Shown here one piece after another: positions 1,404 through 44,289 of a stretch of DNA of 64,000 bases. This DNA is from a virus. A program made the position numbers and the translations under genes. Where the stretch lies: IMG/VR virus record IMGVR_UViG_3300048591_000242, positions 124,001 through 188,000 of that record. The stretch is one strand, 5' to 3'. The notes beneath the pieces were generated by a model that was given only the letters and a program-made list of their open reading frames with translations, was not told where the DNA came from and ran no database searches. Every line of letters begins with the position of its first letter. Position 1 is the stretch's first letter.

Positions 1404-1715
1404 ATGGCTAGAAACTCAATTTCTATTTACGGCTGCGGTGGATTCGGCATCAACATCGTCCGTAACTTTGTGAATATTCCAGATGACCCGGAGCGGCAAC
1501 TGTATCCAAAAACAAGCATTCATGCCATTGACACCAGTGACAGTAATTTGGGCGCTTCACACAATGACATCAAGCACCATGTGGTGCCCGGAATCGACGG
1601 TGCCGGTAAAAACCGTAAACGTGCGTATGAAGCTACGCTGCCGCACATTGCTACAATACTTAACGATCATCGGCCGGGTATATTCAACGTCGTCATATTC
1701 TCAACATCAGGTGGT
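1404..1715 (+). CDS. phuZ: PhuZ phage tubulin, exon 1 (N-terminal part)
   Basis: First 104 codons of the phage tubulin that forms the bipolar spindle centring the phage nucleus and guiding capsids. The N-terminal nucleotide-binding glycine loop is visible (GCGGFGINIV), followed by HAIDTSDSN and GAGKNRKRA segments that align with PhuZ of 201phi2-1. The frame reads to the start of the tubulin signature (FSTSGG) and would then run into KVIH and a stop at 1730. Joining codon 1713-1715 (GGT) to AGT at 4065 restores STSGGSGSVLGPL without a gap. The joined protein is 347 residues, near the usual size of this family. The start follows an AAAGGA site. Confidence 0.9.
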
Positions 1716-1836
1716 AAAGTGATACATTAGTATCCATAGCCTGCTACAGCAGTGATGTTGTAGTAATCGTCTCCTAATTGCGGGAAACTCCTTCCTGTCC
1801 AATATTATGTTCACTAACATAACAAAGGTCAGGCAA

Positions 1837-2487
1837 ATGTCTAATTTTGAAACAAGAGTATGTTCGTATTGCAACAATGAGTATACGAATATTTATCGAG
1901 GACCACACGATGTGAAGGGATACACAATACCTACTTCATATTGTAGTAAATCATGCGCCGGAAAGGCGAAGGGTCCTATACTAGAAGATAGAGGTAAAGA
2001 AAACCTTAAGGCCGAAGCTTTGCAGTGCATTGAAGCGGCAGGTAGGTATCTCACTAAAGAAGAAATCTTAACTGAGGTTAAATGTTCTTCAAAAACACTT
2101 ACTAAACATGGTATTAAAATATCAGAACTAAATGCTGAATTAGGTTTCATTAAACCACGTTCAGTTTTTGAAGGTAAGGTGGGTAGGATACTTAAGGATA
2201 AATTTTCAAATGTAGAAAGTGAAAAAACATTTGAAGGTTTAACCGCACCAACAGGTTATCCCCTTAGGGTGGATTTTTATATACCCGAACTTAATCTAGT
2301 AGTTGAGGCCGACGGTTTACAACACTCCGATAAAAAACATCCATGGGCCACTCATCCCAATGGTACTGTCCGGGAATACGACGAAATCAAAAACAAATTC
2401 CTTCGTGATAATGAAATTGATCTTGTGCGTATTCCGTATAGTAAGAATGTTACTCCTGAAAGTGTTTTGGATAAATTAGATATTTGA
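1837..2487 (+). CDS. intron-encoded Vsr-like (EDxHD) homing endonuclease
   Basis: 216-residue protein inside the phuZ intron. It starts with a zinc-finger-like segment (CSYC near residue 9, then CSKSC near residue 37), continues with a basic helical linker, and ends in a PD-(D/E)XK nuclease fold of the Vsr/EDxHD homing type. The nuclease part shows RVDFYIP, VVEADGLQHS and REYDEIKNKFL, giving the expected D, E-x-D, H and D-x-x-K residues. It should cleave intronless phuZ alleles and drive intron homing. I prefer the ATG at 1837, which has an AAAGG site at good spacing; an ATG at 1807 is in frame upstream. Confidence 0.8.
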   Translation: MSNFETRVCSYCNNEYTNIYRGPHDVKGYTIPTSYCSKSCAGKAKGPILEDRGKENLKAEALQCIEAAGRYLTKEEILTEVKCSSKTLTKHGIKISELNAELGFIKPRSVFEGKVGRILKDKFSNVESEKTFEGLTAPTGYPLRVDFYIPELNLVVEADGLQHSDKKHPWATHPNGTVREYDEIKNKFLRDNEIDLVRIPYSKNVTPESVLDKLDI

Positions 2488-2739
2488 GAGCATTATATAC
2501 CAAGCTAATATCGAAAGATAAGTAGTGGCCTGACTAACTATCAGGGTATGGTAAAAATTATAATGATTGGACAATCCGCCGCGAAGCTTCTCTATGCTAA
2601 AGCAGTGAAGTGTGCTCAACGACTAACCCACTAACCAGGGTGTAGGGTACTAGTGTATCCGAAATGGAGACTGTCTTTAATCGACTAAAGTTTAATTATC
2701 AAAAATCTCGTGGGGGGATTTTTGATTCTGGAGGTGTTT

Positions 2740-3990
2740 ATAGAAAAGTGGAAACTTGTAAAATTGGCACCAAATTATGAAATATCTAGCTGTGGAAAAG
2801 TTAGAAGAGTTAAAGATCACTACCATCTAAAAATTGGTATAGACAGATATGGTTATAATAAAATACATCTAATAAAAAATGATGGATCTAATTATTACAC
2901 AACCATACATCGTCTAGTGGCTATTGCTTTTGTAGATAATCCAAATAGATATACTCAAGTTAATCACAAGGATGGCAATAAAGCAAACAACCACTATACC
3001 AACCTGGAGTGGTGTGACGCAAAACACAACGTTATCCACTCGTATGTGAATGGATTAAACAACAACAGGCTACCCGTTATACTAAAAGATTTAAATACCG
3101 GCTATAAAAAATCTTTTATCTCAATAAAAGAAATGTGTAGATATTTAAATTTGAAACCAAATGTGGTTACTCCTTATATCAAAATATCCCACAAATACCC
3201 TTTTATGGGGAAATACGTAATTGAGGCCGATGAGACTGCTATAAAAGGTATATCTAATAGTAAATCACATGGTGTTGATTGTTATGTTTATGATCATGTC
3301 TCTTGCAAACTGACCAAATATCCAAGCATCAATATGGCTTCGTATTTTACAGGAATTAGAGGGCTATCTAATTTATCTAAATACAGTCCTATTAATGTTG
3401 CTGGATATACAGTAAGCAAAATAAGAGAAGAGTGCGTGTCTGATAAACACAAAATAAGTCTTACCTATGCATCTGAAAAGAGGGAAAAATATCACAGCGT
3501 TTCATACACCCAAAGATCAGACGAGGGATATGAGACATATGACTATTATACAGGAAAAACTGTATGGCACAAGGACAGAGACTGTGTTAGGGACTGGATA
3601 AACAAACACAGGGTCATATCCACCTTGCCCATAGAAAGCGATAACGTTAACGTAGCGGTATCTAGTTCTAAGAAAAATAGCAGAACATGTCTTCTTAGGG
3701 GCTATGGGGTAAGATCACTACTTCATGGTTTTGAATGGTTTCCTTATACGGAGGAAGTTATTTTATCAAACATGTATAATAGAAAATTCATTACTAAGTG
3801 TTTTAAGCTAAAAATGTGTGGCAAAACTGAAATAGTATTTGGCCTTCCGGCATTAGCTAAAATATTAAATGCGCCGCATGACATGCCTTTTAACAAAATG
3901 TCTGTTACGTATTTAAACTCGTTGCTAAACGCACCCCACGAAAGCGTAGAGCGACTTAATAACATAGTCGATTTAAAGATAAAGATATAG
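2740..3990 (+). CDS. intron-encoded HNH homing endonuclease with NUMOD modules
   Basis: About 416-residue HNH endonuclease within the phuZ intron. A NUMOD4-like start (EKWKLVKLAPNYEISSCGKV) is followed by the HNH region with IHRLVAIAFVDNP, VNHKDGNKANNHYTNLEW and AKHNVIHSY. The long remainder holds several NUMOD1-like DNA-binding repeats of the form D-x-x-T/S-G-x-x-x-x-F-x-S-I. The start is uncertain: no ATG fits. The best ribosome site, GGAGG at 2730-2734, points to an ATA at 2740 that gives the natural family N-terminus; a GTG at 2710 is in frame but has no such site. It recognises an intronless target, presumably the phuZ G-box. Confidence 0.85.
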   Translation: MEKWKLVKLAPNYEISSCGKVRRVKDHYHLKIGIDRYGYNKIHLIKNDGSNYYTTIHRLVAIAFVDNPNRYTQVNHKDGNKANNHYTNLEWCDAKHNVIHSYVNGLNNNRLPVILKDLNTGYKKSFISIKEMCRYLNLKPNVVTPYIKISHKYPFMGKYVIEADETAIKGISNSKSHGVDCYVYDHVSCKLTKYPSINMASYFTGIRGLSNLSKYSPINVAGYTVSKIREECVSDKHKISLTYASEKREKYHSVSYTQRSDEGYETYDYYTGKTVWHKDRDCVRDWINKHRVISTLPIESDNVNVAVSSSKKNSRTCLLRGYGVRSLLHGFEWFPYTEEVILSNMYNRKFITKCFKLKMCGKTEIVFGLPALAKILNAPHDMPFNKMSVTYLNSLLNAPHESVERLNNIVDLKIKI

Positions 3991-4064
3991 TCTAGTCTGC
4001 ATGGAAACATGTAGCAGTTCATAAGAGAACGCGCACCATCTAACGAGTGGTGTGGAATATAACG

Positions 4065-4796
4065 AGTGGAAGTGTGTTGGGCCCGCTGATAGTAGCGGAG
4101 TTACTGCGTAGAGCTATCCCTGTCGTTGCGGTTATTGTGGGTTCCTCTGATTCCGCAAAAGAAGTAAACAACAGTCTAGATACGTTGTCTAGTTTACAGC
4201 AGATGTCGAACGGCGGCCATACTGGCGGTAGAGCTATTCCTATGGTTTATTTGGAAAATGCTCGCGCAGTGAAGGGTAATAAAGAAGACAAGATGGCGAG
4301 CCGCAGTGCTGTGGACAAGCAGGTTGAAGAAAATATTCGTCAACTGGCTTTACTGTTCTCTGGCATGCATCGTGAACTAGATAGAACTGATCTGGTAAAC
4401 TGGTTAGACCACAGTAAGGTTTCTCCTTCTATACCTGCCCAGTTACTGGAAGTCATTATTCACAAAGAAGACGACAGCAACATGCTGGAGGCTTATAGTG
4501 GTTTAGTGGTAGGGGTGGCTAGTTTATTGGCCAGTGAAGATGATCTTATTTCTGATCTAAATGCACCCTATGCCACTAAGGGGTATCTACAGGAAGAAGT
4601 TCTGGAATATGCTGATATTCCAAATCACACATACATTACTACAGCAGCTCGAGTACCAAAAATATTCGAGCGTTTTACCCAAGCTAAGCAGCTCCACCGA
4701 GATACCGTAGAGTCACTAAGCGGTATGGAAGTAGTAGGTGTTAATTCTGGATTTGGTACCTCCGGTATGTCCGGTGGAGACGGCATGGTAATTTAG
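4065..4796 (+). CDS. phuZ: PhuZ phage tubulin, exon 2 (C-terminal part)
   Basis: Remaining 243 codons of PhuZ after the intron. It opens with the second half of the tubulin signature (SGSVLGPLIVAELL), matching SGSVLGPLIAGQL of 201phi2-1 PhuZ, then VVAVIVGSSDSAKEVNNSLDT and the long C-terminal helix region. It ends with an acidic tail and the knuckle GGDGMVI, the counterpart of the DGMVV end that makes longitudinal filament contacts in PhuZ. Read alone the frame opens at a GTG at 4047, but the residues before 4065 belong to the intron. Both halves are intact, so splicing should give a working tubulin. Confidence 0.9.
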   Translation, partial: SGSVLGPLIVAELLRRAIPVVAVIVGSSDSAKEVNNSLDTLSSLQQMSNGGHTGGRAIPMVYLENARAVKGNKEDKMASRSAVDKQVEENIRQLALLFSGMHRELDRTDLVNWLDHSKVSPSIPAQLLEVIIHKEDDSNMLEAYSGLVVGVASLLASEDDLISDLNAPYATKGYLQEEVLEYADIPNHTYITTAARVPKIFERFTQAKQLHRDTVESLSGMEVVGVNSGFGTSGMSGGDGMVI

Positions 4797-5192: not shown

Positions 5193-5954
5193 ATGTCACA
5201 ATTCATAAAAACAAGTCTAATTGTAGAGTATAGACAAACTGCTATAGATGTTTTAACGGAATTGAATAACCTGGTCAGAAGTGAGCTATTGCCGGATCTA
5301 AATATAGACTTAGGCTTCTGTGAAAATATGATAATCTCTCAAGTAAAAGATATAGCTGAGCAGGAGCTACGTGCTATACTTAAAAATAAACCCAACGATT
5401 TTCTAGGTCATCTGGTAGCCAATAAAATAAAGGTACACCTGGCTAATAACAACATTCGTAAAGAATACCTTGATATGATGCCTGAAACCCACCGGGTGTT
5501 TTTGGCTGATAAAAAGAAACGGGAGATACTATTATACAGGTATGCGGCGGAAGGTATCAATGGTTTATTGGATGAGCTGTGTCATTTACCGTTTGCCATG
5601 CGTGACTATATAGTAGAATGTGTAGTTAGTATATGGCCGATAACTAGTACGTCGTACGGGCAATTAAATATGGCATTTAATGTTACTGACAGCGTGTATA
5701 GACCGGACATACGGGAGCTAGAACTAAGAGACATGGAAGCTGAGAAAGTTTCCGGTTTTATTGATAACGTAATGTGTATTATAGACGACTTAGGCTGTCT
5801 TAGTAGGCTAAGAGAATTGGTTTCCAGTAGAATCCATGGTAATCCCTATGATGTTTGGGATGTAACTATTAAACCAGGCGGTATAATGGTAGTAGAACAT
5901 GTAGGGGATTTCAGAATACTGGAATGGCATAGAGCAAACAACCACAGCAGGTAA
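5193..5954 (+). CDS. paralogue-array protein 2, double length
   Basis: 253 residues, unknown. It begins like the neighbours (FIKTSLIVEY) and ends with the same style of C-terminal strand pair (VTIKPGGIMVVEHVGDF), but is about twice their length. It may be a fusion of two copies or carry an inserted domain. The middle is helical and highly charged (for example HLANNNIRKEYLDMMPETHR). It starts five bases after the previous stop and is co-transcribed with it. No catalytic signature is visible. Confidence 0.6.
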   Translation: MSQFIKTSLIVEYRQTAIDVLTELNNLVRSELLPDLNIDLGFCENMIISQVKDIAEQELRAILKNKPNDFLGHLVANKIKVHLANNNIRKEYLDMMPETHRVFLADKKKREILLYRYAAEGINGLLDELCHLPFAMRDYIVECVVSIWPITSTSYGQLNMAFNVTDSVYRPDIRELELRDMEAEKVSGFIDNVMCIIDDLGCLSRLRELVSSRIHGNPYDVWDVTIKPGGIMVVEHVGDFRILEWHRANNHSR

Positions 5955-5960
5955 ATAAAA

Positions 5961-6311
5961 ATGATGCCTATTAAAGTACTTGTAGGTATAACTGATATAA
6001 CTAACCACCTTAAAGACTTATTGTCTAGATTCAGCCCTAGCGTAACCTTTATGGATCTAACACACATCACGGAACATTATGTCGACTGCTATATGTACGG
6101 ATCTATGTATGCACAGTACACCATAGATCCAATAGACGAGCTGTTTAGCAGTTTATCCGTACCTACAGATTACAGGACGTACATCAAGACTGACCTTAGT
6201 ATGTCTGTAGTTCTACTGATAGATGAGGCTATGAGGGGGTTGTCTCCAGCAGACGCTAGTTTTGTAATATCGTGGCTACCCAGGGGCGTTGGGGTAATTG
6301 AAGAGGTGTAG
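5961..6311 (+). CDS. small paralogue-array protein 3
   Basis: 116 residues, unknown. The N-terminal strand (IKVLVGITDI), the helical centre and a short C-terminal strand pair (VISWLPRGVGVIEEV) resemble the neighbours. It follows the previous gene by six bases. The next gene begins at a GTG two bases after its stop, so translation is probably coupled. Confidence 0.6.
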   Translation: MMPIKVLVGITDITNHLKDLLSRFSPSVTFMDLTHITEHYVDCYMYGSMYAQYTIDPIDELFSSLSVPTDYRTYIKTDLSMSVVLLIDEAMRGLSPADASFVISWLPRGVGVIEEV

Positions 6312-6312
6312 A

Positions 6313-6633
6313 GTGAGGATAATAGTACCACAACCACATGTAAACTGGATCTACAGAAATCTATCTACAGATGAGACATATATAGCTAGATACGTATATA
6401 TGCTTCTGGTAAATGGGTTTGCAGATTCCACTGAAGAAATCATTAGTAAACTTAACTCACATAACTGGCTAGGTGTATCCAGAGACGCTGACTATACACT
6501 AGTGCTAGAGAGAATAGTTTCCAGAATGGTTTCTGAATACCAGTCTACCGAGCTTGTAGGCTTAGTAAATAGTAAAGTAGTAGATATCTGTCTACTACCA
6601 CCAACCGCACTTATTTTAACGACCAAAGACTGA
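6313..6633 (+). CDS. small paralogue-array protein 4
   Basis: 106 residues, unknown. The start is the GTG at 6313, placed six bases after a GAGG site inside the previous gene; a TTG at 6298 is in frame but less likely. It has an N-terminal strand (VRIIVPQ), a helical middle (ETYIARYVYMLLVNGF) and a C-terminal strand pair (VVDICLLPPTALILTT). Membership of the local family is judged from layout, as pairwise identity is low. Confidence 0.6.
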   Translation: MRIIVPQPHVNWIYRNLSTDETYIARYVYMLLVNGFADSTEEIISKLNSHNWLGVSRDADYTLVLERIVSRMVSEYQSTELVGLVNSKVVDICLLPPTALILTTKD

Positions 6634-15545: not shown

Positions 15546-15662
15546 ATGTATAAGAAAATAATAGAACCTGTATTTTTGTTTACAATCATGCTAATGCTAG
15601 GTATGGAGTTACCCGCTAAGGAGCTTATCGAAACAAAACCTGAAATAAGGGTTGTAAAATAA
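15546..15662 (+). CDS. 38-residue membrane peptide
   Basis: Too short for usual gene calls, but preceded by a clear AGGAG site and a promoter motif. Residues 8-20 are hydrophobic (PVFLFTIMLMLGM) with Lys before and charged residues after, as in a small single-span or signal-anchor peptide. It is the first gene of the transcript leading to chmA. Function unknown. Confidence 0.5.
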   Translation: MYKKIIEPVFLFTIMLMLGMELPAKELIETKPEIRVVK

Positions 15663-15693
15663 GTAATTTTTTACACGCCTAACTATCATATAC

Positions 15694-15755
15694 GTTACAT
15701 ACACCAGTGCCTTCGGGTACTGGGTACCAAGCGCCGTCCGCTGGTTGTATGTAAC
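15694..15755 (+). ncRNA. T-shaped RNA fold upstream of chmA
   Basis: GTTACATACA (15694-15703) is perfectly complementary to TGTATGTAAC (15746-15755) and encloses two hairpins. The first is ACCAGTGCC with a TTCG tetraloop and GGTACTGGGT (15703-15725). The second is ACCAAGCG/CGCTGGT around a CCGTC loop (15726-15745). Together they make a three-way junction. It lies between the tiny membrane ORF and a second promoter motif before chmA. It could be a leader control element, a processed small RNA or a 3'-end stem. Confidence 0.55.
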
Positions 15756-15868
15756 ACAGTTGTATTTTAATACACCTTGTACTCATGTTGTGCGATAGAA
15801 AGACAATGGTCTTCTATTCCAATCTTGATGTATATTCTAACCACAGTAACTTTCAGGTTTGTTTTAGG

Positions 15869-15878
15869 TATATATCAC
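15869..15878 (+). promoter_or_regulatory. TATATATCAC promoter motif before chmA
   Basis: One-base variant of the TATATATTAC motif, 68 bases before the chmA start. The same variant precedes the genes at 44977 and 46531. Confidence 0.6.
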
Positions 15879-15946
15879 TAACCTGGTGTTCTAGAACTCA
15901 CCAAGAAATAAATAAAACCATAAACCCAATGTTGGAGTAATAAAAA

Positions 15947-17860
15947 ATGGCTATTAAGAAAACAGGTGGAGAATCCGCAGAAGTGTCACAAGACAATGCT
16001 GGACCACAACAAGGATACACGTACCAACCACAATCTACAGGTGACGACCTGTTCTCTGGTATTGGTGTAGAGACTCTTTCTGGAGGCGTAGATACTGAAG
16101 GCTTCGCTGCGTTCAGTGCTGAGATGGAAAGACTATCTAAGTTACCTGAAGTACTCAGAACTATTAAGTTGAGTGTTATTCCGGTATCAAACCAACACCT
16201 TAGACTGCCGGTATTGGCCATGGCGGCTGAGTCTAAAGACGGGGTTGTGGTTTACAGCCTTCTTATTGAAGGCATGATGGGTCAGCCTTTGGAGCCTATT
16301 CGTGAAATCCGTCGTGATTTCGGTGGCCCACAGGGAGCTGAGATTATTATTGATCGTCCTACTAGTCGTTGCTATGACAACGGTTTGCGTAAGATCGTAG
16401 CGGCTGCGGTAGCTACGCAGTTAAATACCAGTGCTGAGCGTATCGTTCACCAGTCACATTGTGTTGTGCCACGTGGCGCTAACCTTAAGTGTGCTGAAAC
16501 CTGTCGCTCGTTCTTTGACAGCGCTAACCTAGCTCTGACAAACGCTGTAGCGCGCGATCGTATTGCCGGTGTTACCGTAGCTAACCTTACCAACCCAGCG
16601 GGTGTGGTAAATCAGCGTACTACTATTACACCTGGACAAAACAAGTTGAACAAAATCGGTTTGCCTATTGCGGCTGACTTTACAACCACTATTGAACTTG
16701 CTCGTAAGGCGCAAGAAAAGACCAGTTGGTCATCAGATATTCACGTTGCACAACAGCGTTACCATTTGGCAGAAGTAAGCGGTTACATTGATTTCTCAGT
16801 AGCTGGCCCAATTCCACCAAAACCAAACATGAATCCAATGCTGCCACAAACTGTACCTGGTTACATTCCTATGGTTGTAATTACAGAAATCGCTGGTTTG
16901 GCAAACAACGGTTCCTCTATTGAAGACATGCGCACGCAGTTACTGGGTATTGCTGCTACTACAGCGCTTACTGCAGATCACGGCTGGGTACGTGTATTTG
17001 AAAAGATGGCCGGTGCCAAATCCGTCAAGGCAGATATCGGTTTATTAGGTTTGGAACACGATCCGTATATCGGTCGTACACCAGAACTAGGTATGGTTAG
17101 CGTAGACAGCATTAGCTACGGTAAGCAGCCAAAAGAAGGCACAATGACTCCGAAGCAAGTAGCGGATTTGTGGTGTACTGATAAAGTAGCAGTAGCGCTG
17201 GATGTTGAACAGGGTGGCCGTTTGCACTGGATTCAGGATATCTTTGTAGCGGCCTCTGGTGTAGGTGATGAAACTGGTCGCCGTACCGCAGCTAACGAAC
17301 GTATCATTGCTGAGTGTGATGTTCTTACTAACGGTATTTTCTCACGTCTATGGACTGAGTTAAACGGTGGTCAGAAAGCACACGTGGTAGCTACTGAAAC
17401 TGTAGCAGTACATTTGGGTACGTATGATGGCGGTAAGAATGGCGGTCGCCGTGATCTTCGTTCTATCGACTATCTGACAATGCTAGGTCAAATGCCGAAA
17501 GATCTGGAAAAGCTAAGTGCAGCTACTGCCGCTACCATTCCTGGTGGCTGTAATGCTATTACACTTACTGATCGCAGAAACGCTATTGAAAACATTGTGG
17601 GCGATTGTGAATTCACCGGTATGGCTACACGCGTCTTCTTAACTGGTGGTTTCATCAATACTTTCGTACGTGCACTTATCCAGGCAGGTGTTACTTTCCG
17701 TTCTGACGATTTGTTAGGTTACGGTCAGTCTAGCCAGCGTGTGGTAATGAACTACAACTTGGCCGGTACTGCTTCTGAAGGTTTATATCAGACAGCATAT
17801 CAGCAGGGTTCAGTACCAGGCATCCCAGGCGGTGCTGGGTATATTAACCCATTGTTCTAG
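15947..17860 (+). CDS. chmA: chimallin-like phage nucleus shell protein
   Basis: 637 residues, the length expected for the protein that assembles the protein shell of the phage nucleus (family of phiKZ gp54 and 201phi2-1 gp105). The call rests on length, the MAIKK N-terminus, a flexible N-terminal tail, and position directly before the beta-prime N-terminal RNA polymerase gene, as gp54-gp55 in phiKZ. I cannot align it residue by residue from memory. Codon choice differs from the neighbours: many CGT, GGT, CTG and AAC codons, as in very highly expressed genes. It has its own promoter motif and a hairpin after the stop. No membrane segment. Confidence 0.85.
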   Translation: MAIKKTGGESAEVSQDNAGPQQGYTYQPQSTGDDLFSGIGVETLSGGVDTEGFAAFSAEMERLSKLPEVLRTIKLSVIPVSNQHLRLPVLAMAAESKDGVVVYSLLIEGMMGQPLEPIREIRRDFGGPQGAEIIIDRPTSRCYDNGLRKIVAAAVATQLNTSAERIVHQSHCVVPRGANLKCAETCRSFFDSANLALTNAVARDRIAGVTVANLTNPAGVVNQRTTITPGQNKLNKIGLPIAADFTTTIELARKAQEKTSWSSDIHVAQQRYHLAEVSGYIDFSVAGPIPPKPNMNPMLPQTVPGYIPMVVITEIAGLANNGSSIEDMRTQLLGIAATTALTADHGWVRVFEKMAGAKSVKADIGLLGLEHDPYIGRTPELGMVSVDSISYGKQPKEGTMTPKQVADLWCTDKVAVALDVEQGGRLHWIQDIFVAASGVGDETGRRTAANERIIAECDVLTNGIFSRLWTELNGGQKAHVVATETVAVHLGTYDGGKNGGRRDLRSIDYLTMLGQMPKDLEKLSAATAATIPGGCNAITLTDRRNAIENIVGDCEFTGMATRVFLTGGFINTFVRALIQAGVTFRSDDLLGYGQSSQRVVMNYNLAGTASEGLYQTAYQQGSVPGIPGGAGYINPLF

Positions 17861-17934: not shown

Positions 17935-19152
17935 ATGAGTAAAAACATCCGCGTACTGGATCACGATGAACATTTTAGAAGTTTAAATTTTCCACCGATT
18001 ATTCTAAACGATATACCGGCCAGAACTAAGGAGGAGAGAGAAGCACTAAATAACATCATAATGACCACGTACGACAACACAGATACTTTAGAGTCAGTAC
18101 CTAGCTGTGCGTGTGGGGCTCTGTCGTATGGGCATAACTTAGGGGCCATGTGTAGTAGCTGTGGTACCAGAGTAGAAACCCCTACAGACAGAAAAATAGA
18201 GGCTACCGTATGGATACGTTCTCCAGAAGGTATAGTTTCTTTAGTAAACCCAGTATTGTGGTTGGTGTTAGGGAAGATCTTAACAAAATCACACTACAAC
18301 GTTCTGTATTGGTTTTGTAACCCATATGCTGAAGATCCCCCACATAACAACAAGGCTGCTATTCAGTTAATACGCAGATTTTTAAACTCTGGCATACCTC
18401 GAGGATTAAATTCCTTTATAGTGAACTTCGATCAGTTAGTACCTATCTTTCTGGCCGCAGTACCACTAGCTTCTAACCGACCACATCTGGAATCTTTTAT
18501 TTCAGAAAATAAAGACAAGTTCTTTCCACAGCACCTACCAGTACCGTCTAAGGTAGCGTTTGTTCTGGAGAAAACTAGTACTGGCTCTTATGCCGATATT
18601 AACATAAGAGACCCTATTAACGCATGTCTTACTGTAACTTCACTGGACTCTGGTACCTTAAGTAACGTTAAGAGACTAGAAAGCAGAATGTCTTCTGTTA
18701 TCAATGATTTATCGAACTATTACAAACATATGTTTGGTGATCCGTTCTCAGCTAAGGCCGGTCTTCTTAGAAAGACTGTATTTGGCAGTAGGATGGGTTA
18801 TAGTTTTCGATGCGTTATAACCAGTGCTCACGGGGTACACGACTATGAGCAAATAAAGATACCTTATTCTCAAGCGGTAACTCTACTTAAGGCACACCTT
18901 CTAAACAAGCTACACAAGTTGGAGTATAACGAGAGAGATGCTAAGGCTTATATAGCCCAGCATACCAAGGAGAGAGATCCTCTGCTTCTTAGGCTCTTAT
19001 ATGAGCTTATAGCAGAAGCACCAGGGGGTAAAGGTATACGTTGTCTCTGGATTCGGTACCCTACTTTAACGAGGGGCAGTATACAGTCGCTTCATATCTC
19101 GGATATCTCCGAGATGTCAGCTAGTCTTAGTATATTGGCCCTAAACGGCGCT
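17935..19152 (+). CDS. non-virion RNA polymerase beta-prime N-terminal subunit, exon 1
   Basis: First about 406 codons of a beta-prime-like subunit, equivalent by order to phiKZ gp55. A zinc-ribbon (CACG ... CSSCG, near residues 60-80) sits where bacterial beta-prime has its N-terminal zinc site. LLRKTVFGSRMGYSFRCVITS corresponds to the conserved GKRVDYSGRSVI region. RYPTLTRGSIQSL corresponds to NRAPTLHRLGIQAF. The frame then runs into non-homologous sequence and a stop at 19173, and the catalytic loop appears only at 20674, after an intron. The splice point is placed after GCT at 19152; a shift of a few codons is possible. Confidence 0.85.
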
Positions 19153-20646
19153 ACGGCTGATGAAGCGGCTTAACTAACGATACTTGAACAATTGTGTTTG
19201 CTAATGTACATTAATGCTCTATGTGTTCTTTAAATTAAATAAATATCATGGTGAGGATAAATGTATGTTAGTTGAAATTAAAGGTTTTCCTGGGTTCTAT
19301 AGGGCTGTTGGTACAACAAACCTGGCCGTAAATAAAAATGGAATCATTCTAGATTTAGTTACCCGTAAATACAAACTCACCGACGTTGCATCGGATGGGT
19401 ACATCACCACAAATGATGGCGGAGTAACTAGGAACGTTCATCGCATTATGGGTGATACATTCCTAAAACGTCCTAGCGGGAAGGGGACGTACATAATCAA
19501 CCATAAGGACGGAGATAAAACTAATCCTAGGTTAGATAATTTAGAATGGGTTACATATAGCGGTAACATAGAACATGCCTACGCTAATGGTCTAAGAACA
19601 GACAACACTCCGGTTGAAGTTTATAACTTGAAAACGGATGAAATTATAAAATTTATTAGTATACAGCAGTGTGCTAAGTATTTTAAACGTAACCATAACG
19701 CTATAGTTAAGTATCTTAAAAGCAAGCGTAATGCACCGTTTATGTTGTCGTACAGCATTAGAAAGGTAGGGGAAGGTTGGCCACCTCTTACCAAGAATGA
19801 TATTGGTAAAGTGGTAAATGGGGCACCCGTTAGCATAATAGCGGTTAATGTAAGTACCGGTGAAAAAATAATTTTCAGTGGTGCTAAAGCGGCGTCAGAA
19901 TATCTGGGTCTAAAGAAATCTGGAATAGGTGGTAACTTACGTGGCACACATGGCGATAAGCCGTACCACGGTTATAGATTTTACCATCTTAACACCTATA
20001 ATCTTGAGTCTACAGATAACGCAATTGATGTGCGTGATCCTCAATCAACTAAATCTAAAGGAAAACCACCTAGACAAAAGCCCAAAATGGTTAGTGCATT
20101 TAATCATGATACCGGTATTGAGGATGTGTTTAACTCCATGCGCGTATTTGCTGAGTCTGTAGGGACAACCTATGATGCAATAGCTAGATCGGTATGGAAA
20201 AACGCTGGTAGGTGGAAAAACTACACAATCAAGTATATAGGTTAAGCCGATAGTCCTCTAGGCTAGTAATGGTCTAGTAGTTTCTCTCTAATTGCTGGAA
20301 CCCACTAAAGATTCACCCACTACAACGTAACTGGAAACGGTAAGCGTGAAGGTATCGAAAGATAGAAAAAAGTGGTGAGTATGGAATATGACGATAGTAA
20401 GTCTAAGTTCTATAGACAATGTGGGAATCAGCAGCGAAGTTCCTAAGCTACTCTACCTTGGTAGAGGTGTATGGAATGTGCTCAACGATCAACCGGTAGC
20501 TCGGTGTAGGGTGGCAAGCGATGTAACAATCAGGCCATTCGAAATGGGAGGGGGCCTTTCATGTTTGTGTGAAAGGTTCATGATATGATCTAATATCCAT
20601 CTGTAATGGATGGGAAGTTCGCTACTTCGGTAGTGAGAACTGTATG
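19153..20646 (+). mobile_element. group I intron in the RNA polymerase beta-prime gene
   Basis: About 1.5 kb separates the PTLTR region from the catalytic aspartate loop. Core pieces resemble the phuZ intron: AATTGCTGGAACCC near 20290, GGGAATCAGCAGCGAAG near 20422 and GTGCTCAACGATCAACCGG near 20477. The last exon base before it is T and the last intron base is G. The homing endonuclease gene sits before the core, near the 5' side. The exact ends need RNA evidence. Confidence 0.8.
19265..20245 (+). CDS. intron-encoded HNH homing endonuclease with NUMOD modules
   Basis: 326 residues. A NUMOD4-like opening (KGFPGFYRAVGTTNLAVNKNG) is followed by the HNH core: VHRIMGDTFLKRP, INHKDGDKTNPRLDNLEWVTY and GNIEHAYANGL. 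NUMOD1-like repeats come next (VEVYNLKTDEIIKFISIQQC, IAVNVSTGEKIIFSGAKAAS) and give sequence-specific DNA binding. It should cut the intronless RNA polymerase gene. The ATG at 19265 is chosen for its GAGG site at good spacing; the frame is open to 19214. It is related to the endonuclease at 2740-3990 but much shorter. Confidence 0.87.
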   Translation: MLVEIKGFPGFYRAVGTTNLAVNKNGIILDLVTRKYKLTDVASDGYITTNDGGVTRNVHRIMGDTFLKRPSGKGTYIINHKDGDKTNPRLDNLEWVTYSGNIEHAYANGLRTDNTPVEVYNLKTDEIIKFISIQQCAKYFKRNHNAIVKYLKSKRNAPFMLSYSIRKVGEGWPPLTKNDIGKVVNGAPVSIIAVNVSTGEKIIFSGAKAASEYLGLKKSGIGGNLRGTHGDKPYHGYRFYHLNTYNLESTDNAIDVRDPQSTKSKGKPPRQKPKMVSAFNHDTGIEDVFNSMRVFAESVGTTYDAIARSVWKNAGRWKNYTIKYIG

Positions 20647-20883
20647 GGTGTCGCGGCCCATATGAATGCAATGTACGATGGTGATGTTCTCAGTGGCTGT
20701 ATAGCCCTTAGTAGGAAGCAATATGATGACTTTGAGTACTTCAGACCACACTACGGTATTCATTCCTTTGTTAAGTTAGGTGAGCTAAATGGAAACTGCA
20801 GTTTACCAGAAACCGACATCGGTGTGATTAACTCGTGGTTTGAGTATGAAGAAGATGAGTTAGGTATTGTAGCTGAACGATAG
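20647..20883 (+). CDS. non-virion RNA polymerase beta-prime N-terminal subunit, exon 2
   Basis: 78 codons finishing the gp55-like subunit, giving about 484 residues in all. It starts with VAAHMNAMYDGDVLSG, the counterpart of the NADFDGD catalytic loop that holds the magnesium ion. Here the first aspartate position is Met, leaving two of the three aspartates. The rest (IALSRKQYDDFEYFRP ... WFEYEEDELGIV) ends soon after the loop, as expected for a split beta-prime whose C-terminal part is a separate gene (34511-36484). A terminator follows. Confidence 0.8.
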   Translation, partial: GVAAHMNAMYDGDVLSGCIALSRKQYDDFEYFRPHYGIHSFVKLGELNGNCSLPETDIGVINSWFEYEEDELGIVAER

Positions 20884-20893
20884 TTGTAGACAG

Positions 20894-20920
20894 GGGGAGC
20901 CAATGGCTCCCCTTTTATTT
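20894..20920 (+). terminator. intrinsic terminator
   Basis: GGGGAGCC / GGCTCCCC (20894-20901, 20905-20912) with a three-base loop, followed by TTTTATTTTT. Ends the beta-prime gene. Confidence 0.8.
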
Positions 20921-20944
20921 TTGTGCTGTTTGGAGGAAAGGTTT

Positions 20945-21340
20945 ATGGTTATTCAAAATGTGCCAGTAGGTTGGGTATTGGTAGCGGAAGGTAGTGAGGT
21001 ACCGACGGTACATAGGGAAGGACATGTACAGGATGATGGTAGTGTGGTGTGGGCAGATATTCAATATGAGCACACCGATGCTACGCCTGAATGGGTAGGT
21101 CAACAGGAGGGCGTATATATACTTACAACACTAGGGCATTTATTTAACATATATGTTAATAAAGGCGGCTATCGAATATTTCCAGACGGTACCGTGTTTA
21201 TAACCAAACATAATAGGCCGTCTGGGGACATGTATCGTAGTTTTAGACGAGACAAGGTTGGCAGTTTAATATGTAAAGAAACTGGGGATTACTTATTTAA
21301 GTATGAGGAACACAAACCATGCAGTTATGTGGAGTTTTAG
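20945..21340 (+). CDS. hypothetical protein
   Basis: 131 residues, not recognised. The ATG at 20945 follows a GGAGGAAAGG site; an upstream in-frame ATG at 20903 lies inside the terminator hairpin and is rejected. Residues are largely beta-forming with an aromatic-rich middle (GVYILTTLGHLFNIYVNKGGYRIF), and the C-terminus is charged. Its last 22 bases overlap the next gene. No motif identifies a function. Confidence 0.6.
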   Translation: MVIQNVPVGWVLVAEGSEVPTVHREGHVQDDGSVVWADIQYEHTDATPEWVGQQEGVYILTTLGHLFNIYVNKGGYRIFPDGTVFITKHNRPSGDMYRSFRRDKVGSLICKETGDYLFKYEEHKPCSYVEF

Positions 21341-21798
21341 TAGTAGATATCGCTAATGGCTTTTGTTATATATTTGAGTCTAGCGAATCTGCTTCAAGAT
21401 ACCTTATAGGGGAGAACATATTACATATAGAACCCAGTACGGTGGAAAATCTAATACGGGGTACAAATGGTAATCTGTATAAGGGACTCTTCTTTATACT
21501 AATAAACGATTATGCATATAGTCTATCCATAGCTAGAAACGTACACATGCATGCTAGGACTATGCGTATAGAAGCTATGGATACTAACTCTGGTATTATA
21601 ACTGAATATGTAAACTCCATTATGTTTGCTATGGTTACTAGAGTAAATTTATCTAGTTTGAAGCTTTTGTTTACAGGGCATGAGAAACTGGTATATGTAG
21701 GGAGTTGGGTAGTGCGTTTAAAGGATACACCAGTAGACTGGCCTACGGAGGAGGAGATTAATGATTATTTTAATTACATAACCGGCAAGGTATTGTAA
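21319..21798 (+). CDS. NUMOD1-like DNA-binding protein without a nuclease domain
   Basis: 159 residues with two copies of a module that resembles the DNA-binding repeats of the HNH endonucleases in this window. Copy one runs from VVDIANGFCYIFESSESASR to YKGLFFILI; copy two runs from IEAMDTNSGIITEYVNS to YVGSWVVRL. The spacing of the D-x-x-x-G turn, the S-x-x-x-A helix and the final Y-x-G-x-x-x-x strand matches NUMOD1. No HNH or GIY-YIG residues are present. It could be a domesticated DNA-binding regulator or an endonuclease remnant. It overlaps the previous gene by 22 bases. Confidence 0.5.
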   Translation: MQLCGVLVVDIANGFCYIFESSESASRYLIGENILHIEPSTVENLIRGTNGNLYKGLFFILINDYAYSLSIARNVHMHARTMRIEAMDTNSGIITEYVNSIMFAMVTRVNLSSLKLLFTGHEKLVYVGSWVVRLKDTPVDWPTEEEINDYFNYITGKVL

Positions 21799-21866
21799 TA
21801 TAACTGCGCATGGGTATATGTTGGAGTACTTTCTGTGCCCTATATAAGGCTCAGCACAATACCAGA

Positions 21867-21876
21867 TATATATTAC
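21867..21876 (+). promoter_or_regulatory. TATATATTAC promoter with leader box
   Basis: Exact motif, followed after 11 bases by ACAACCAC (21888-21895). The same motif-to-box spacing is found at 27474, 32280 and 34464. It precedes the gene starting near 21932. Confidence 0.7.
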
Positions 21877-21931
21877 GGTATAGACACACAACCACAAAAA
21901 GCATGGGAAAAGCCCATGGGAGGATAATAAG

Positions 21932-22549
21932 ATAGCTACCTTTTATGGGTCACCAGAAGAAGCGGCTGCCGCACTATACAGTGGTCCCAGTAACGCAGCC
22001 ATGCAGTACGTAAATCAAACTGTAGATAGATTTGTAGGCTACGCGCAGGCTATGCCCGGTAGTATAGCTAACGTAGTACGGCAGAAACACCAGGAGCTTT
22101 TGTCCAGTAGCACTAGTCGTAAAGTAGAGGCTATACGTCACAAAATAAACAACATGTGGCAGGATAATACTGTACGGGTAATGTGGAGTGTAGGGGCAGC
22201 TCAACAGGCACCAGACGCTATGGTACGTTGGATGATGGCTAATCCTAGAATACGTTCCTTGTATCATGACGGTAGGGTAGAAGGCTATGGCGATAGGTAC
22301 AATGATATTCAGCCTAACTGTGTAGGGGAAGAACAGTATGATTATCGCAGGGTAATGGACGGGATGATTGTTAATACTGAAACAGGAAGCCATTATACTA
22401 CCTATCACGAAGAAATAATACCGGATGACGTTGTATTAAATACTTTAGAGAAAATGAGTATTAGATTATCCTGGGACATCGTTAATAAGGAAATAGAAGA
22501 TGGGAATATGGATGATCCGACGTCAGAATGGAACGCACTGATTGGTTAG
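21932..22549 (+). CDS. hypothetical protein with probable ATA start
   Basis: 205 residues, not recognised. The first ATG is at 22001 with no ribosome site, but the frame upstream is clearly coding (ATFYGSPEEAAAALYSGPSN). A GGGAGG site at 21918-21923 lies eight bases before an ATA at 21932; no ATG, GTG or TTG fits. The protein is helical in the first 70 residues and acidic near the end, with no catalytic motif seen. A promoter with leader box sits directly upstream and a terminator follows. Confidence 0.55.
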   Translation: MATFYGSPEEAAAALYSGPSNAAMQYVNQTVDRFVGYAQAMPGSIANVVRQKHQELLSSSTSRKVEAIRHKINNMWQDNTVRVMWSVGAAQQAPDAMVRWMMANPRIRSLYHDGRVEGYGDRYNDIQPNCVGEEQYDYRRVMDGMIVNTETGSHYTTYHEEIIPDDVVLNTLEKMSIRLSWDIVNKEIEDGNMDDPTSEWNALIG

Positions 22550-40315: not shown

Positions 40316-40320
40316 ACCCA

Positions 40321-40350
40321 GGACTAGGGGATATCCTCTAGTCCTTTTAT
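40321..40350 (+). terminator. intrinsic terminator
   Basis: GGACTAG / CTAGTCC (40321-40327, 40338-40344) followed by TTTTATGCTGTATATT. Ends the helicase unit. Confidence 0.65.
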
Positions 40351-40372
40351 GCTGTATATTGGAGAATTAATT

Positions 40373-41041
40373 ATGATATCAATTTGTTTTAATAATAAGA
40401 TGGTGGCTACAGACTCATTGCACCCAAAAACACCTATAGGGGGTAAAAACTATGGCGCCATATTTACCACGAAATGTGGAAAATTAAACGGCAACAAAAT
40501 AATTGCTGTTGCATGCTGTGGAAATATCGTATTAGCTGGCCAGCTACTATACTCATATTTAGGTGACGTAACGCTGTATAATACACCTGGAAATGAAGAG
40601 GATTTTTCTGTGTGGATCAGTAGAACCTATAAAAGGCTGTTAGGATTTGTCGATAACAGCGAAGTTGTAGTTTTCAGTAAGGGTACAGAAGGTACAGTTA
40701 TACATACTTTTGGCATAAGTAGAAACGGTATATCTACGATTAAGGAAATACCTATGACTGAAGATGATATTGGTGTCTTAGACACATGTATTTATACCTC
40801 TGACGATCTAGACGAATATTGCGATAGTAAAGCCAACGTCAAATTACCAACCAACCCACTGGATAGGATGTGGGTTTATTCTAAATACCACCAGGGTCGT
40901 AATCCTACTATCACATATCTAGAATTTGATACTATGGAACTTAAAACATACTCACCCACACCCGCCATTAAAAGGAAATTAACTAAACTTGCAAAAGATA
41001 CCCTTGAGTTTAGATTAGCTATAATAGAAAATAGAATTTAA
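40373..41041 (+). CDS. Ntn-hydrolase-like (proteasome/HslV fold) protein
   Basis: 222 residues from the ATG at 40373, which follows GGAG; an ATG at 40349 is in frame but inside the preceding tail motif. The order of segments recalls proteasome beta-type folds: ISICFNNKMVATDSL at the start, then TTKCGKLNGNKIIAVACCGNIVLAGQLL, then VVVFSKGTEGTVIHTFGISRNG. HslV shows a comparable N-terminal strand, an ADG/ADS turn and a K-x-x-x-L-x-x-x-x-I-A-G-x-A-G segment. There is no N-terminal Thr-Thr; the nearest nucleophile would be Ser3. The fold call is moderate and activity is unproven. Confidence 0.45.
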   Translation: MISICFNNKMVATDSLHPKTPIGGKNYGAIFTTKCGKLNGNKIIAVACCGNIVLAGQLLYSYLGDVTLYNTPGNEEDFSVWISRTYKRLLGFVDNSEVVVFSKGTEGTVIHTFGISRNGISTIKEIPMTEDDIGVLDTCIYTSDDLDEYCDSKANVKLPTNPLDRMWVYSKYHQGRNPTITYLEFDTMELKTYSPTPAIKRKLTKLAKDTLEFRLAIIENRI

Positions 41042-41127: not shown

Positions 41128-41157
41128 TCTATGGCTAGCTTTAGTGCTAGCCATAGA
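41128..41157 (+). terminator. hairpin
   Basis: TCTATGGCTAGC / GCTAGCCATAGA (41128-41139, 41146-41157), perfect 12-bp stem, with a TTTTTTATTTTT run about 13 bases later. Separates the Ntn-like gene from the duplicated internal-head-type genes. Confidence 0.6.
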
Positions 41158-41197
41158 CACCCTTTATACCGCTTTTTTATTTTTGGGGAATGCTGTA

Positions 41198-42220
41198 ATG
41201 TATACAGAAATCGTAGCAGAAGAATTAGAATTAGATGCAGCATTGGACTGTTGCTTGGTAAAGTCTAGACTGGTTATGGGGCTAGAGGATATATTTGAAA
41301 GTTTACCTACAGACTGTGACATGGGTAAAACGGTATTGGCTGTGGCGGCAACAAACACTGGCAATACACCCACATATAGTGCAGAAGGTATTTCCGATTT
41401 CCTCGCACAACTGTGGGAGGGGATTAAGAATGTAATGTCTAAGATCTGGGAAAACATTAAGAAATTCGGGGCATGGCTACGTGCTGGCGTGTTAAGATTG
41501 TTTGGTATGTCCAAAAGTATAAAAGAAGAGGCGGATGGTAAACTTGACTTGGTAGGTCAGATAAAAGCGGAACAGTTACAATTTCTTAAAGGGATGGCTG
41601 CTTATGACGATGGTATACGCAATGCAATGAATTTAAGTGAGGGTAGAGTGGGTGCCATTATAGATGCTGTTGATGAATTCAGTAAGAAAGAAATACCTAC
41701 TACAGAAGAAACTATGGCCAATGCCAGGGCTTTTTTGGATGCTAAAAGAGCAGCAAAGGATGCTAAAGCTATTACCGATAAACTGGCCATGGGGGAAATA
41801 GAAGTGACATCCACTAAAGATCCAGAATCTGGGGAAGAGACACTGGTTGGGTTTAATTATGTACCTAACAAACCAGCCAAGGACAGCGATAAGGTTACTA
41901 AAATAACCGGTAAGGATATTTCTAAAATGGCTGGAGAAATATCTAAGACAGAAAGTAAGGTCTTAGATATGACTAAACGATTAACGGACACCAAATGGGC
42001 CGAGGATGCCATTAAGAAAATGGACTCAATGATACGTAGACTGGGTAGTGCGCCGGAAGGTAAAGTAAAACGCTACGTCGCCAGAAAATCCAGAGAACTA
42101 TCTAGGGCCATCCAAACAGAAATAAAGCTCAATAAAATAATAGCCGATGACCTAAAAAAGACACTGGATGCATCCATTAGTGGTTTGGATGGGGCTCTTA
42201 AGTCACTCAGCAACAAATAA
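41198..42220 (+). CDS. internal head (inner body) type protein, copy 1
   Basis: 340 residues from the ATG at 41198 behind GGGGAATGC. Layout: an acidic about 70-residue N-terminal part (EELELDAALD, GLEDIFESLP), then TYSAEGISDFL, an amphipathic helix (LWEGIKNVMSKIWENIKKFG), and a long Lys/Asp-rich helical remainder. In phiKZ relatives internal head proteins carry N-terminal propeptides cut after S/A/G-x-E; SAE-G fits such a site. It is a tandem paralogue of the next gene, sharing long identical DNA near the start. Likely packed with DNA in the capsid and ejected; this is inferred. Confidence 0.6.
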   Translation: MYTEIVAEELELDAALDCCLVKSRLVMGLEDIFESLPTDCDMGKTVLAVAATNTGNTPTYSAEGISDFLAQLWEGIKNVMSKIWENIKKFGAWLRAGVLRLFGMSKSIKEEADGKLDLVGQIKAEQLQFLKGMAAYDDGIRNAMNLSEGRVGAIIDAVDEFSKKEIPTTEETMANARAFLDAKRAAKDAKAITDKLAMGEIEVTSTKDPESGEETLVGFNYVPNKPAKDSDKVTKITGKDISKMAGEISKTESKVLDMTKRLTDTKWAEDAIKKMDSMIRRLGSAPEGKVKRYVARKSRELSRAIQTEIKLNKIIADDLKKTLDASISGLDGALKSLSNK

Positions 42221-42251
42221 TAGCCACCAGTAAACTTTGAGGAATGCCGTA

Positions 42252-43256
42252 ATGTATACAGAAGAATTAGAATTAGATGCAGCATTGGATGACTGCATCG
42301 CCAAGGCCAATTTAACTATCGGCCTGGAGAGTGTATTTCCAGATTTACCAGAAAATAGTAAGCTAGGTAGAAAGGTTTTAGAGGTAGCTTCCATGCATAC
42401 CGGCATTACACCTACATATAGTGCTGAGGGTATAGGTGACTTTTTAATTAATGTCTGGGAAGGCATTAAAAATGTAATGTCTAAGATCTGGGAGAGTATT
42501 AAGAAGTTTGCTAAATGGGTAAAAGAGTCCATTGGCAATATGTTTGGCAAAATTGACGATAAAAGAATTGATTCAATAGCCGACAGCGATGTAGTTGTTG
42601 AAGTAGAAGAAGCTGCTGAGTTACCAGATCTTGCTAAACTTAAAAAAATGAATGAAGACGTTCTCTATGAAGGTGACGTTGAAAAGCAAATTGATGCTTT
42701 AGAGAAGGTAGATGAAGATCTTACCGATGACGTAGCTGAAGTAATAGAGGCCGGTACCGCTGAAGTAGATAAAGGTAAGGTAAAAGATCTTAATGAATTC
42801 TTTACTAATAACCAGGTAGTAATTGAATCTACTATTGACCCGCACAGTGGTAAAGAAACCAGAAATGCGGTTACTGTTGTGCCGTTAAACAGAAAAACCA
42901 ATACGGTTAAAATTAAACGTATGAGTGGTAAGGATTTGGCCAAGATGGCTAAGGACACCAAGTCGCTACAAAAGGATGTAGAAGACGCAGTGGAAAATCT
43001 TACCGACACTAAATGGGGTGAAAAGCGTTTAGCCGATTTGGATAAAATCATTAAACGCATCAGTAAGGCGGGTACCTTAAAAGCTAAGAGTGTAGTAAAG
43101 AAACAGGCTATTACTCTTAGCGGTGTAGTGCGGGATAACCTTAAGGTAAAAAGAGCTATGGCTCGTGACCTATTAGAGTCATTAGAGGCCCGTATTAAAA
43201 TAATTGATGGCGCCATTAAGGCTATGGAAGCTGCTGAAAAAGCCGATAAAGAGTAA
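42252..43256 (+). CDS. internal head (inner body) type protein, copy 2
   Basis: 334 residues. The start region repeats that of copy 1 in both leader (GGAATGCCGTAATG) and protein (MYTEELELDAALDDC). It again has GLESVF, TYSAEGIGDFL and the amphipathic helix VWEGIKNVMSKIWESIKKFA. After about residue 110 the two copies diverge, but both keep the pattern GKDLAKMAKDTKSLQKDVED / TDTKWGEKRLADLDKII near the C-terminal third. Same inferred role and same candidate SAE-G cleavage. The ClpP-like pair begins seven bases after its stop, so the four genes form one unit. Confidence 0.6.
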   Translation: MYTEELELDAALDDCIAKANLTIGLESVFPDLPENSKLGRKVLEVASMHTGITPTYSAEGIGDFLINVWEGIKNVMSKIWESIKKFAKWVKESIGNMFGKIDDKRIDSIADSDVVVEVEEAAELPDLAKLKKMNEDVLYEGDVEKQIDALEKVDEDLTDDVAEVIEAGTAEVDKGKVKDLNEFFTNNQVVIESTIDPHSGKETRNAVTVVPLNRKTNTVKIKRMSGKDLAKMAKDTKSLQKDVEDAVENLTDTKWGEKRLADLDKIIKRISKAGTLKAKSVVKKQAITLSGVVRDNLKVKRAMARDLLESLEARIKIIDGAIKAMEAAEKADKE

Positions 43257-43262
43257 CGCATT

Positions 43263-43751
43263 ATGAAATATATTCCGATTTTTGATGATACTACGGTAGG
43301 TTCTGTATTTGCTGAGCTTTTGGCCTGTCAGAGTGAAGGGGAGACTGAGGCTACTTTAATCTTCAGTGCCCCTGATATGGGTATGTATATAGGTTTGGCC
43401 TTTAGAGACCTTTTATATACCTTTAAGGACACTCTTGCGCTTACGGCGGTAGCCCACATACCCCCTAACCTAAATGAGCTTGTAGCGATTACAGGGTTGC
43501 CTGTAGAGCAGAGAAAGATTACTAAGTCAAATCTAGTAATCTTTGTAAAAGAAACCTGGTTTATCGAAGGCTCTGTTTCTGAGCAGTACATTACTCATTC
43601 AGAAAAGCTTTTAGTAGAAAATAAAATTGTAAAACTAATAAGCGAGTCTTCTAAGCTTACCGAAGAAAACATAAACAACCTAATTAAAGACGGTAAGGTT
43701 GTTCATGCTAAGGATGCTATAGAGGCAGGGTTATTTGGGAGTACTGTATAA
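43263..43751 (+). CDS. ClpP-like pseudoprotease
   Basis: 162 residues with the ClpP/crotonase repeat layout but no catalytic triad. Segments TLIFSAPDMGMYIGLAFRDL, LALTAVAHIPPNLNELVAIT and VVHAKDAIEAGLFGSTV line up with the intact ClpP encoded next (IVLFINSYGGRVDVCLAIVD, YTVGYGQVMSAGAFILANG, YYLSATEAVEFGIVDTV). The Ser position falls in PPNLNE, the His position in LVIFVKE and the Asp position in DGKVV, so all three appear lost. Stop and next start overlap (TAATG). Similar dead/active pairs are known in ClpR/ClpP rings, suggesting a mixed complex. Confidence 0.65.
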   Translation: MKYIPIFDDTTVGSVFAELLACQSEGETEATLIFSAPDMGMYIGLAFRDLLYTFKDTLALTAVAHIPPNLNELVAITGLPVEQRKITKSNLVIFVKETWFIEGSVSEQYITHSEKLLVENKIVKLISESSKLTEENINNLIKDGKVVHAKDAIEAGLFGSTV

Positions 43752-44248
43752 TGGCTACTAAAAGAATACTTTACATTACCGATGACATAGCTTTAGAAAA
43801 CGGCTATGAGGTAATTATAGGTTTGCGTAAGCTAGAGGCAGAAGACCCTATCTCCCCTATAGTTTTGTTTATAAATTCATACGGTGGCAGAGTAGACGTA
43901 TGTCTGGCTATAGTAGACGTTATGAACGATCTGTCGTGTCCTGTATATACCGTGGGATACGGTCAGGTTATGTCAGCAGGTGCCTTTATTTTAGCAAACG
44001 GCTCTAAAGGTAATAGAAGCTTAGCCCCTAATGCCAGAGTACTACTACATCACCCTAACGGCAATAACGTACTGGGAGATACAGACACCGGCATGGCTGT
44101 ATTCTTAGCCTATCGTGATATGGTAGATGTATTAATAGCAGAAGCTTCTGAAAGAAGTATAGAAGAGGTATCTTCTAAGATGTCTACTGACTATTATTTA
44201 TCTGCTACAGAAGCTGTAGAATTTGGTATAGTAGATACTGTTTTATAG
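43751..44248 (+). CDS. ClpP-like serine protease
   Basis: 165 residues with the complete ClpP triad: Ser75 in GQVMSAGAFIL, His100 in ARVLLHHP and Asp147 in STDYYLSATEAVEFG. The substrate-strand motif FINSYGGRVD matches the family's F-I-N-S-P-G-G. It is about 30 residues shorter than bacterial ClpP and lacks a propeptide. It could act with a host ClpX/ClpA, with the upstream dead paralogue, or as a head-maturation protease, since S14-type enzymes serve that role in other phages and internal-head-type genes lie just upstream. No ATPase gene is next to it. Confidence 0.88.
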   Translation: MATKRILYITDDIALENGYEVIIGLRKLEAEDPISPIVLFINSYGGRVDVCLAIVDVMNDLSCPVYTVGYGQVMSAGAFILANGSKGNRSLAPNARVLLHHPNGNNVLGDTDTGMAVFLAYRDMVDVLIAEASERSIEEVSSKMSTDYYLSATEAVEFGIVDTVL

Positions 44249-44256
44249 CGTATTAG

Positions 44257-44289
44257 GTATAGTCCTCCATATAGAGGACTATACTTTTT
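44257..44289 (+). terminator. intrinsic terminator
   Basis: GTATAGTCCTC / GAGGACTATAC (44257-44267, 44274-44284), then TTTTT. Ends the ClpP unit. Confidence 0.8.

Follow-up and report, generated by a model that had tools for sequence, protein, structure and literature searches.

Locus and gene neighbourhood

The window, a 64,000-base stretch that corresponds to bases 124001–188000 of a virus record of 202,179 bases, carries two overlapping genes of the ClpP protease family on its plus strand. The first encodes a homologue without the catalytic triad (the dead subunit) and the second a catalytic subunit (the active subunit). The pair forms the end of a five-gene unit that is flanked by two strong terminator-like hairpins. 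The features of the locus are:

15947–17860, plus strand: chimallin homologue, which marks the phage type
37841–40315, plus strand: UvsW-type helicase with an intein-like insert
40320–40345, plus strand: terminator-like hairpin at the end of the helicase gene
41144–42220, plus strand: phiKZ_IP-like gene (weak match to an internal head protein), 5′ of the ClpP pair and within its unit
42237–43256, plus strand: second phiKZ_IP-like gene, weak match, which stops 6 bases before the ClpP pair
43263–43751, plus strand: dead ClpP homologue (ClpR-like subunit), 162 aa
43737–43741, plus strand: GGGAG, a Shine–Dalgarno-like sequence read from the sequence, 9 bases 5′ of the start codon of the active subunit
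43749–43753, plus strand: TAATG stop/start overlap of the two genes, one base shared
43751–44248, plus strand: catalytic ClpP-family subunit, 165 aa
43973–43975, plus strand: codon of catalytic Ser75
44048–44050, plus strand: codon of catalytic His100
44189–44191, plus strand: codon of catalytic Asp147
44255–44286, plus strand: terminator-like hairpin directly 3′ of the ClpP pair

The combination of chimallin (nuclear shell protein; phrog_4795, E 1.8e-37 and 5.2e-39), split multi-subunit RNA polymerase genes and phiKZ_IP-like proteins in the window identifies its record, on gene content, as a nucleus-forming, phiKZ-type jumbo phage (Chimalliviridae). Chimallin is also encoded by the other records that bear the pair, with the exception of G001. 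By RNA polymerase, the closest isolates are Vibrio phages (34–37% identity) and the closest IMG/VR record shares 54% identity. The RNA polymerase gene at 17935–22549 appears to be split by an HNH homing endonuclease-like gene (19214–20245), and a tubulin-like gene (1404–4796, weak match) appears to be split by another (2710–3990); both may represent introns. The intein-like insert of the helicase lies between GGGKAQPL and the ITDDFIVTHNT junction, and the helicase of a related IMG/VR record (L043) holds a similar insert plus an HNH-like gene.

Three further genes separate the helicase from the pair in the window. The product of 40349–41041 resembles an HslV/proteasome-type Ntn hydrolase by eye, an identity that would have placed two chamber proteases within one unit; comparisons with Pfam, PHROGs, NCBIfam, PDB sequences and the Proteasome profile were all negative, and we make no such assignment. 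The other two (41144–42220 and 42237–43256) are paralogues in tandem that weakly resemble the internal head proteins of phiKZ and lie immediately 5′ of the pair.

The open reading frames (43263–43751 and 43751–44248) and their TAATG overlap are exactly as the first-pass annotation had given them. Shine–Dalgarno-like sequences precede each gene of the pair in the window, and the active gene has such a site of its own in seven of seven lineages, from which coupling of the dead and active genes appears likely. Equal synthesis of both subunits, suggested earlier from the overlap, we can only infer.

The position of the pair bears on a role in head maturation. Prohead proteases of ClpP type are known, there are matches to PHROG head-maturation families, and two phiKZ_IP-like genes lie upstream, all of which would suit an active copy that serves as the prohead protease. 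However, the window's record encodes a separate phiKZ gp175-type head protease (98420–99124, E 6e-74), as do six of six other pair-bearing records, which makes a head-maturation role for the ClpP pair unlikely in all seven phages. Against it as well, the score for NCBIfam NF045542 (ClpP-related head maturation protease) is 44.3 bits, below the cut-off of 120, and the pair adjoins nvRNAP and helicase genes. We therefore consider a prohead protease highly improbable, in agreement with the earlier remark that this is not a standard head protease arrangement.

Active and dead ClpP subunits

The active subunit matches Pfam CLP_protease (PF00574) at 135.1 bits (E 3.3e-39, cut-off 20.2, positions 14–179 of 182) and solved ClpPs at 5.6e-25, and its model finds ClpPs at 5e-17. 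The proposed triad of Ser75, His100 and Asp147 is confirmed: all three residues are invariant in a five-phage alignment and align with Ser97, His122 and Asp171 of E. coli ClpP, and the GG oxyanion motif is kept. The E. coli sequence used for numbering has a length of 193, equal to that of PDB chain 1yg8, and aligns cleanly with the Acinetobacter ClpP of record L003. Against the NCBIfam clpP equivalog TIGR00493 the subunit scores 107.1 bits, below the cut-off of 308.6. On these matches, the second gene product is a predicted ClpP-family (S14) protease, yet one that is far from the bacterial ClpP orthologue.

The dead protein alone matches Pfam CLP_protease weakly (18.2 bits, E 0.0023; 20.9 bits in the genome search). 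Its homology is made solid by three tests that are free of any active ClpP. First, a profile of the five first-found dead proteins recovers PDB ClpPs at 1.7e-7 and unrelated phage ClpPs down to 1.2e-12. Second, the dead protein of L043, a closer relative, scores 44.6 bits, well above the Pfam cut-off. Third, AlphaFold2, supplied with an alignment of four dead proteins (window and IMG/VR rows), predicts a confident ClpP fold (pLDDT 89, pTM 0.84) that is low only at residues 100–107, the tip of the handle. Structure prediction had been proposed as a check on the claim that the first gene shares the ClpP fold, with unrelated folds as the adverse outcome; run for the dead protein, it bears the claim out, and the structural neighbours of the model are ClpPs with TM-scores of up to 0.82. 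Top matches among predicted viral structures include chains of 190, 174, 189 and 164 residues, which by length only would correspond to the dead proteins of BONAISHI, pir03 and Yong and the active protein of pir03.

In the window's dead protein the three triad positions are replaced (N/V/G or L/V/G, by alignment) and both oxyanion glycines are lost. The annotated loss of the whole triad thus stands for this protein; it does not extend to every relative, as Ser or His is still in place in some (BONAISHI, pir03 and sm033), depending on the alignment.

Pairing, selection and descent

A dead-then-active pair occurs in the window and in six further lineages: the Vibrio phages vB_pir03, sm033, Yong XC31 and BONAISHI, and the IMG/VR records L043/L044 and L048. 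In all six relatives the pair is located after the same helicase, with one intervening gene in Yong XC31, and across the seven lineages the start-to-stop spacing within the pair ranges from an 8-base overlap to a 3-base gap. Identity to the window protein is 26–36% for active subunits and 11–28% for dead subunits, which are far more diverged. Single-sequence searches gave no relatives: blast found no match to the dead protein in the phage collection, tblastn with dead proteins found none in phage records, and IMG/VR scans that used just one of the pair proteins, or just one RNAP sequence, likewise recovered none. The dead-protein alignment holds no stretch sufficiently conserved for a pattern scan.

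Two pairs of relatives were measured, and in both the dead gene shows purifying selection. Its dN/dS is 0.15 between pir03 and sm033 and 0.10–0.17 between L043 and L044, and that of the active gene is 0.10 and 0.06–0.09, respectively, with dS above 2 and saturated in the pir03/sm033 comparison. A decaying pseudogene, or a first gene that is no ClpP homologue at all, might be proposed from the weak Pfam score of the single protein and the lack of a blast match in the phage collection. The profile, fold and selection evidence and a frame that is intact in seven lineages oppose this, leaving it virtually no chance, and as far as sequence and predicted fold can tell, we take it as refuted.

In a ClpP tree that contained no ClpR row, the dead genes of all seven lineages group as a single clade (100/99), albeit with long branches. 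An AU test did not reject the active genes as a single clade (p 0.30), and close kinship of dead and active genes, as in a duplication inside these phages, was neither supported nor rejected (p 0.19). The order of the Vibrio phages is identical in the ClpP and RNA polymerase trees, as expected of vertical descent.

These data favour, at a probability of about 0.55, a reading in which both genes make one phage-specific two-subunit ClpP-type protease with a ClpR-like dead partner, probably with no standard drive by ClpX or ClpA. Alternatively, the active subunit could be a lone homo-oligomer and the dead protein a separate regulator, one that inhibits its partner or serves it as an adaptor, or else a subunit that enters host ClpP and poisons it. 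The greater divergence of the dead subunits and the Shine–Dalgarno-like site before each gene would suit a separate regulator, but the scanned loci include no dead gene without its partner, gene order and spacing are fixed, and a poison of host ClpP needs no active phage ClpP beside it. We regard this alternative as unlikely.

Scanned relatives of the clade hold the pair, a fusion in record L045 or nothing, and no unpaired ClpP was found among them; a helicase-based scan yielded 18 loci without any ClpP. Among other IMG/VR ClpP loci (9 and 46 in two sets), an adjoining ClpP-like gene is limited to this clade and L107, so phage ClpPs are not paired in general. The viral contig L107 (447 kb) is unrelated and carries an overlapping dead-then-active pair (5328–5915 and 5902–6507), in which the triad positions are N/G/I in the first gene and intact S/H/D in the second, and the N-terminus and docking pocket are kept. 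It is apparently an independent ClpP/ClpR-like pair in a huge phage.

The strongest counter-evidence to a two-subunit protease is the L045 fusion. There, a single ORF of 374 aa (15626–16750) replaces the pair, its C-terminal ClpP domain has no triad, and no second ClpP was found in the record. In the RNA polymerase tree L045 and the window fall together (95/93). The likeness of the N-terminal domain to the dead subunit is weak (hhalign E 0.0013, probability 18%) and only suggestive of kinship. In L048 the second gene (16258–16740) keeps Ser and His, with Glu for the catalytic Asp and SAA for SAG. Together, the triad-less domain of L045 and the Asp-to-Glu change of L048 indicate that catalysis is not indispensable in every lineage, and they would fit a pair of structural or binding modules with proteolysis lost or of secondary importance. 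The other six lineages nevertheless retain Ser-His-Asp and the GG oxyanion motif intact despite divergence to 28–36% identity to the window protein, and such modules appear very unlikely.

A chamber probably without standard ClpX/ClpA docking

Four features that the first-pass annotation had not described set the pair apart, as judged from sequence: missing axial loops, a docking pocket that is not kept, no Clp ATPase, and a shortened active handle beside a canonical dead handle. Counted on E. coli ClpP, each subunit starts only near residue 25, roughly 25 residues late, and the axial loop is absent in seven of seven lineages. The active subunit has 4 residues before its first core strand, versus about 25, and the open frame adds at most 13, with no start codon. 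In the window, open frames of just 178 and 164 aa for the two subunits leave no room for a start further upstream.

The pocket that docks the IGF loop of ClpX reads V L F Y Y F I M F L L in E. coli and I R K V F D V Y S A L in the window's active subunit, such that L48, F49, F82 and F112 become R, K, D and S. Read at the sequence level from alignments at about 30% identity, the hydrophobic character of this pocket is apparently not kept. No AAA_2 or AAA ATPase was found in the window's record, and the six other records with the pair likewise gave no AAA_2 match. An AAA_2 match in the L107 record was considered as a ClpX and set aside, as by eye it looks more like a MoxR-type ATPase.

Docking of host ClpX or ClpA, implied by the earlier proposal of a pull-down, is thus probably wrong. 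The corresponding alternative, a canonical ClpP/ClpR core fed by host ClpX or ClpA, has points in its favour: no unfoldase gene was found in the phage, and bacteria infected by such phages generally possess ClpX/ClpA. Jumbo-phage ClpP has also been proposed to act against host proteins (PMC7824862), and the Erwinia phage RAY, likewise a nucleus-forming phage with self-compartmentalising proteolysis genes, encodes an SspB-like ClpXP adaptor (gp039) besides gp116 of the HslUV family (PMC10299810). These RAY proteins belong to different families, and gp039 would feed host ClpXP, not replace it. With axial loops absent from both subunits and Arg, Lys, Asp and Ser in the active-subunit pocket, we find a host-fed core quite unlikely.

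The handle, measured from His122 to residue 150 in E. coli numbering, comprises 27 residues in the window's active subunit and 25 in those of the six relatives, whereas the dead handle has 29 residues in seven of seven lineages, the same as E. coli (29). The shorter active handle could be explained just as well by single rings made of the active subunit by itself.

In the two-subunit protease that we favour, the second gene would provide the catalytic subunit, and the first a non-catalytic, ClpR-like subunit of ClpP fold that co-assembles with it as an obligate structural and allosteric partner, the role that ClpR has (PMC7966870). Assembly may take the form of mixed heptamers or of an active ring stacked on a dead ring, with the intact handle of the dead subunit making up for what the active one has partly lost. 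The handle, when intact, positions the catalytic triad (PMC12383707), so a dead partner that supplies handle contacts is a fair but unproven guess. Given the missing axial loops, the eroded ClpX pocket and the lack of a Clp ATPase, the chamber most likely acts without ClpX or ClpA in the standard way. It would then be a peptidase that is open, or gated in another way, and acts on small or unfolded proteins, or it would be fed by a partner other than standard ClpX/ClpA.

A more specific version, which we put forward tentatively as possible but below even odds, is a protease that does without an AAA+ unfoldase altogether. The dead subunit would contribute the handle, to stack the rings and close the chamber, and catalysis would come from the truncated active subunit, perhaps within the phage nucleus or close to it. 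L107, in which the docking parts are kept, may represent a second origin of this division of labour.

The loss of axial loops and pocket in both subunits yields a sharp prediction, independence from ClpX. Pseudo-enzymes in protease rings are usually studied in plastids, with nine subunits; if the phage subunits co-assemble, they would provide a small minimal model for why such rings keep pseudo-enzymes. The pair would also add a candidate proteolytic machine to nucleus-forming phages, in which protein sorting and host take-over are open questions. In the literature searched, which left most subscription papers outside its scope, no paper discusses a dead/active ClpP pair in a phage, and we are aware of no virus for which an active/inactive ClpP pair of its own has been demonstrated.

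Relation to known ClpP systems

Paired bacterial paralogues with unequal roles are found in ClpP1/ClpP2 of Listeria (4ryf), Mycobacterium tuberculosis, Pseudomonas aeruginosa (9ndj) and Chlamydia, there as hetero-tetradecamers. Both bacterial paralogues generally keep most of the triad, whereas one phage subunit is without triad and oxyanion hole and both are without axial loops. Chlamydia ClpP1 resembles both phage subunits in the latter respect; it is said not to bind ClpX for want of axial loops, and its heterotypic complexes with ClpP2 have been reported in vitro (PMC9823225).

The likeness to mixed ClpP/ClpR rings drawn in the first-pass annotation is a fair analogy. ClpR is a ClpP homologue without the triad that works with active ClpP (PMC7966870), and the ClpP/ClpR systems of cyanobacteria, plastids and apicoplasts likewise combine an active ClpP with a triad-less homologue of the same fold. 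Cellular ClpP/ClpR is fed by ClpC; the phage pair, in contrast, has no ATPase, axial loops or kept docking pocket, its active handle is shortened, and its genes are adjacent and overlapping.

The 2018 genome paper of Vibrio phage BONAISHI (PMC6207643) names ORF86 a 'Clp protease subunit' and ORF87 ClpP, which are the same gene pair as that of the window; the passages found there list both ORFs without remark on a dead active site or on pairing. The lone ClpPs of the jumbo phages RaK2, PA5oct, Atu_ph07 and Serratia phage BF also belong to family S14 but differ in having no adjoining dead partner that was seen, a canonical or longer handle, a longer N-terminus and other neighbours.
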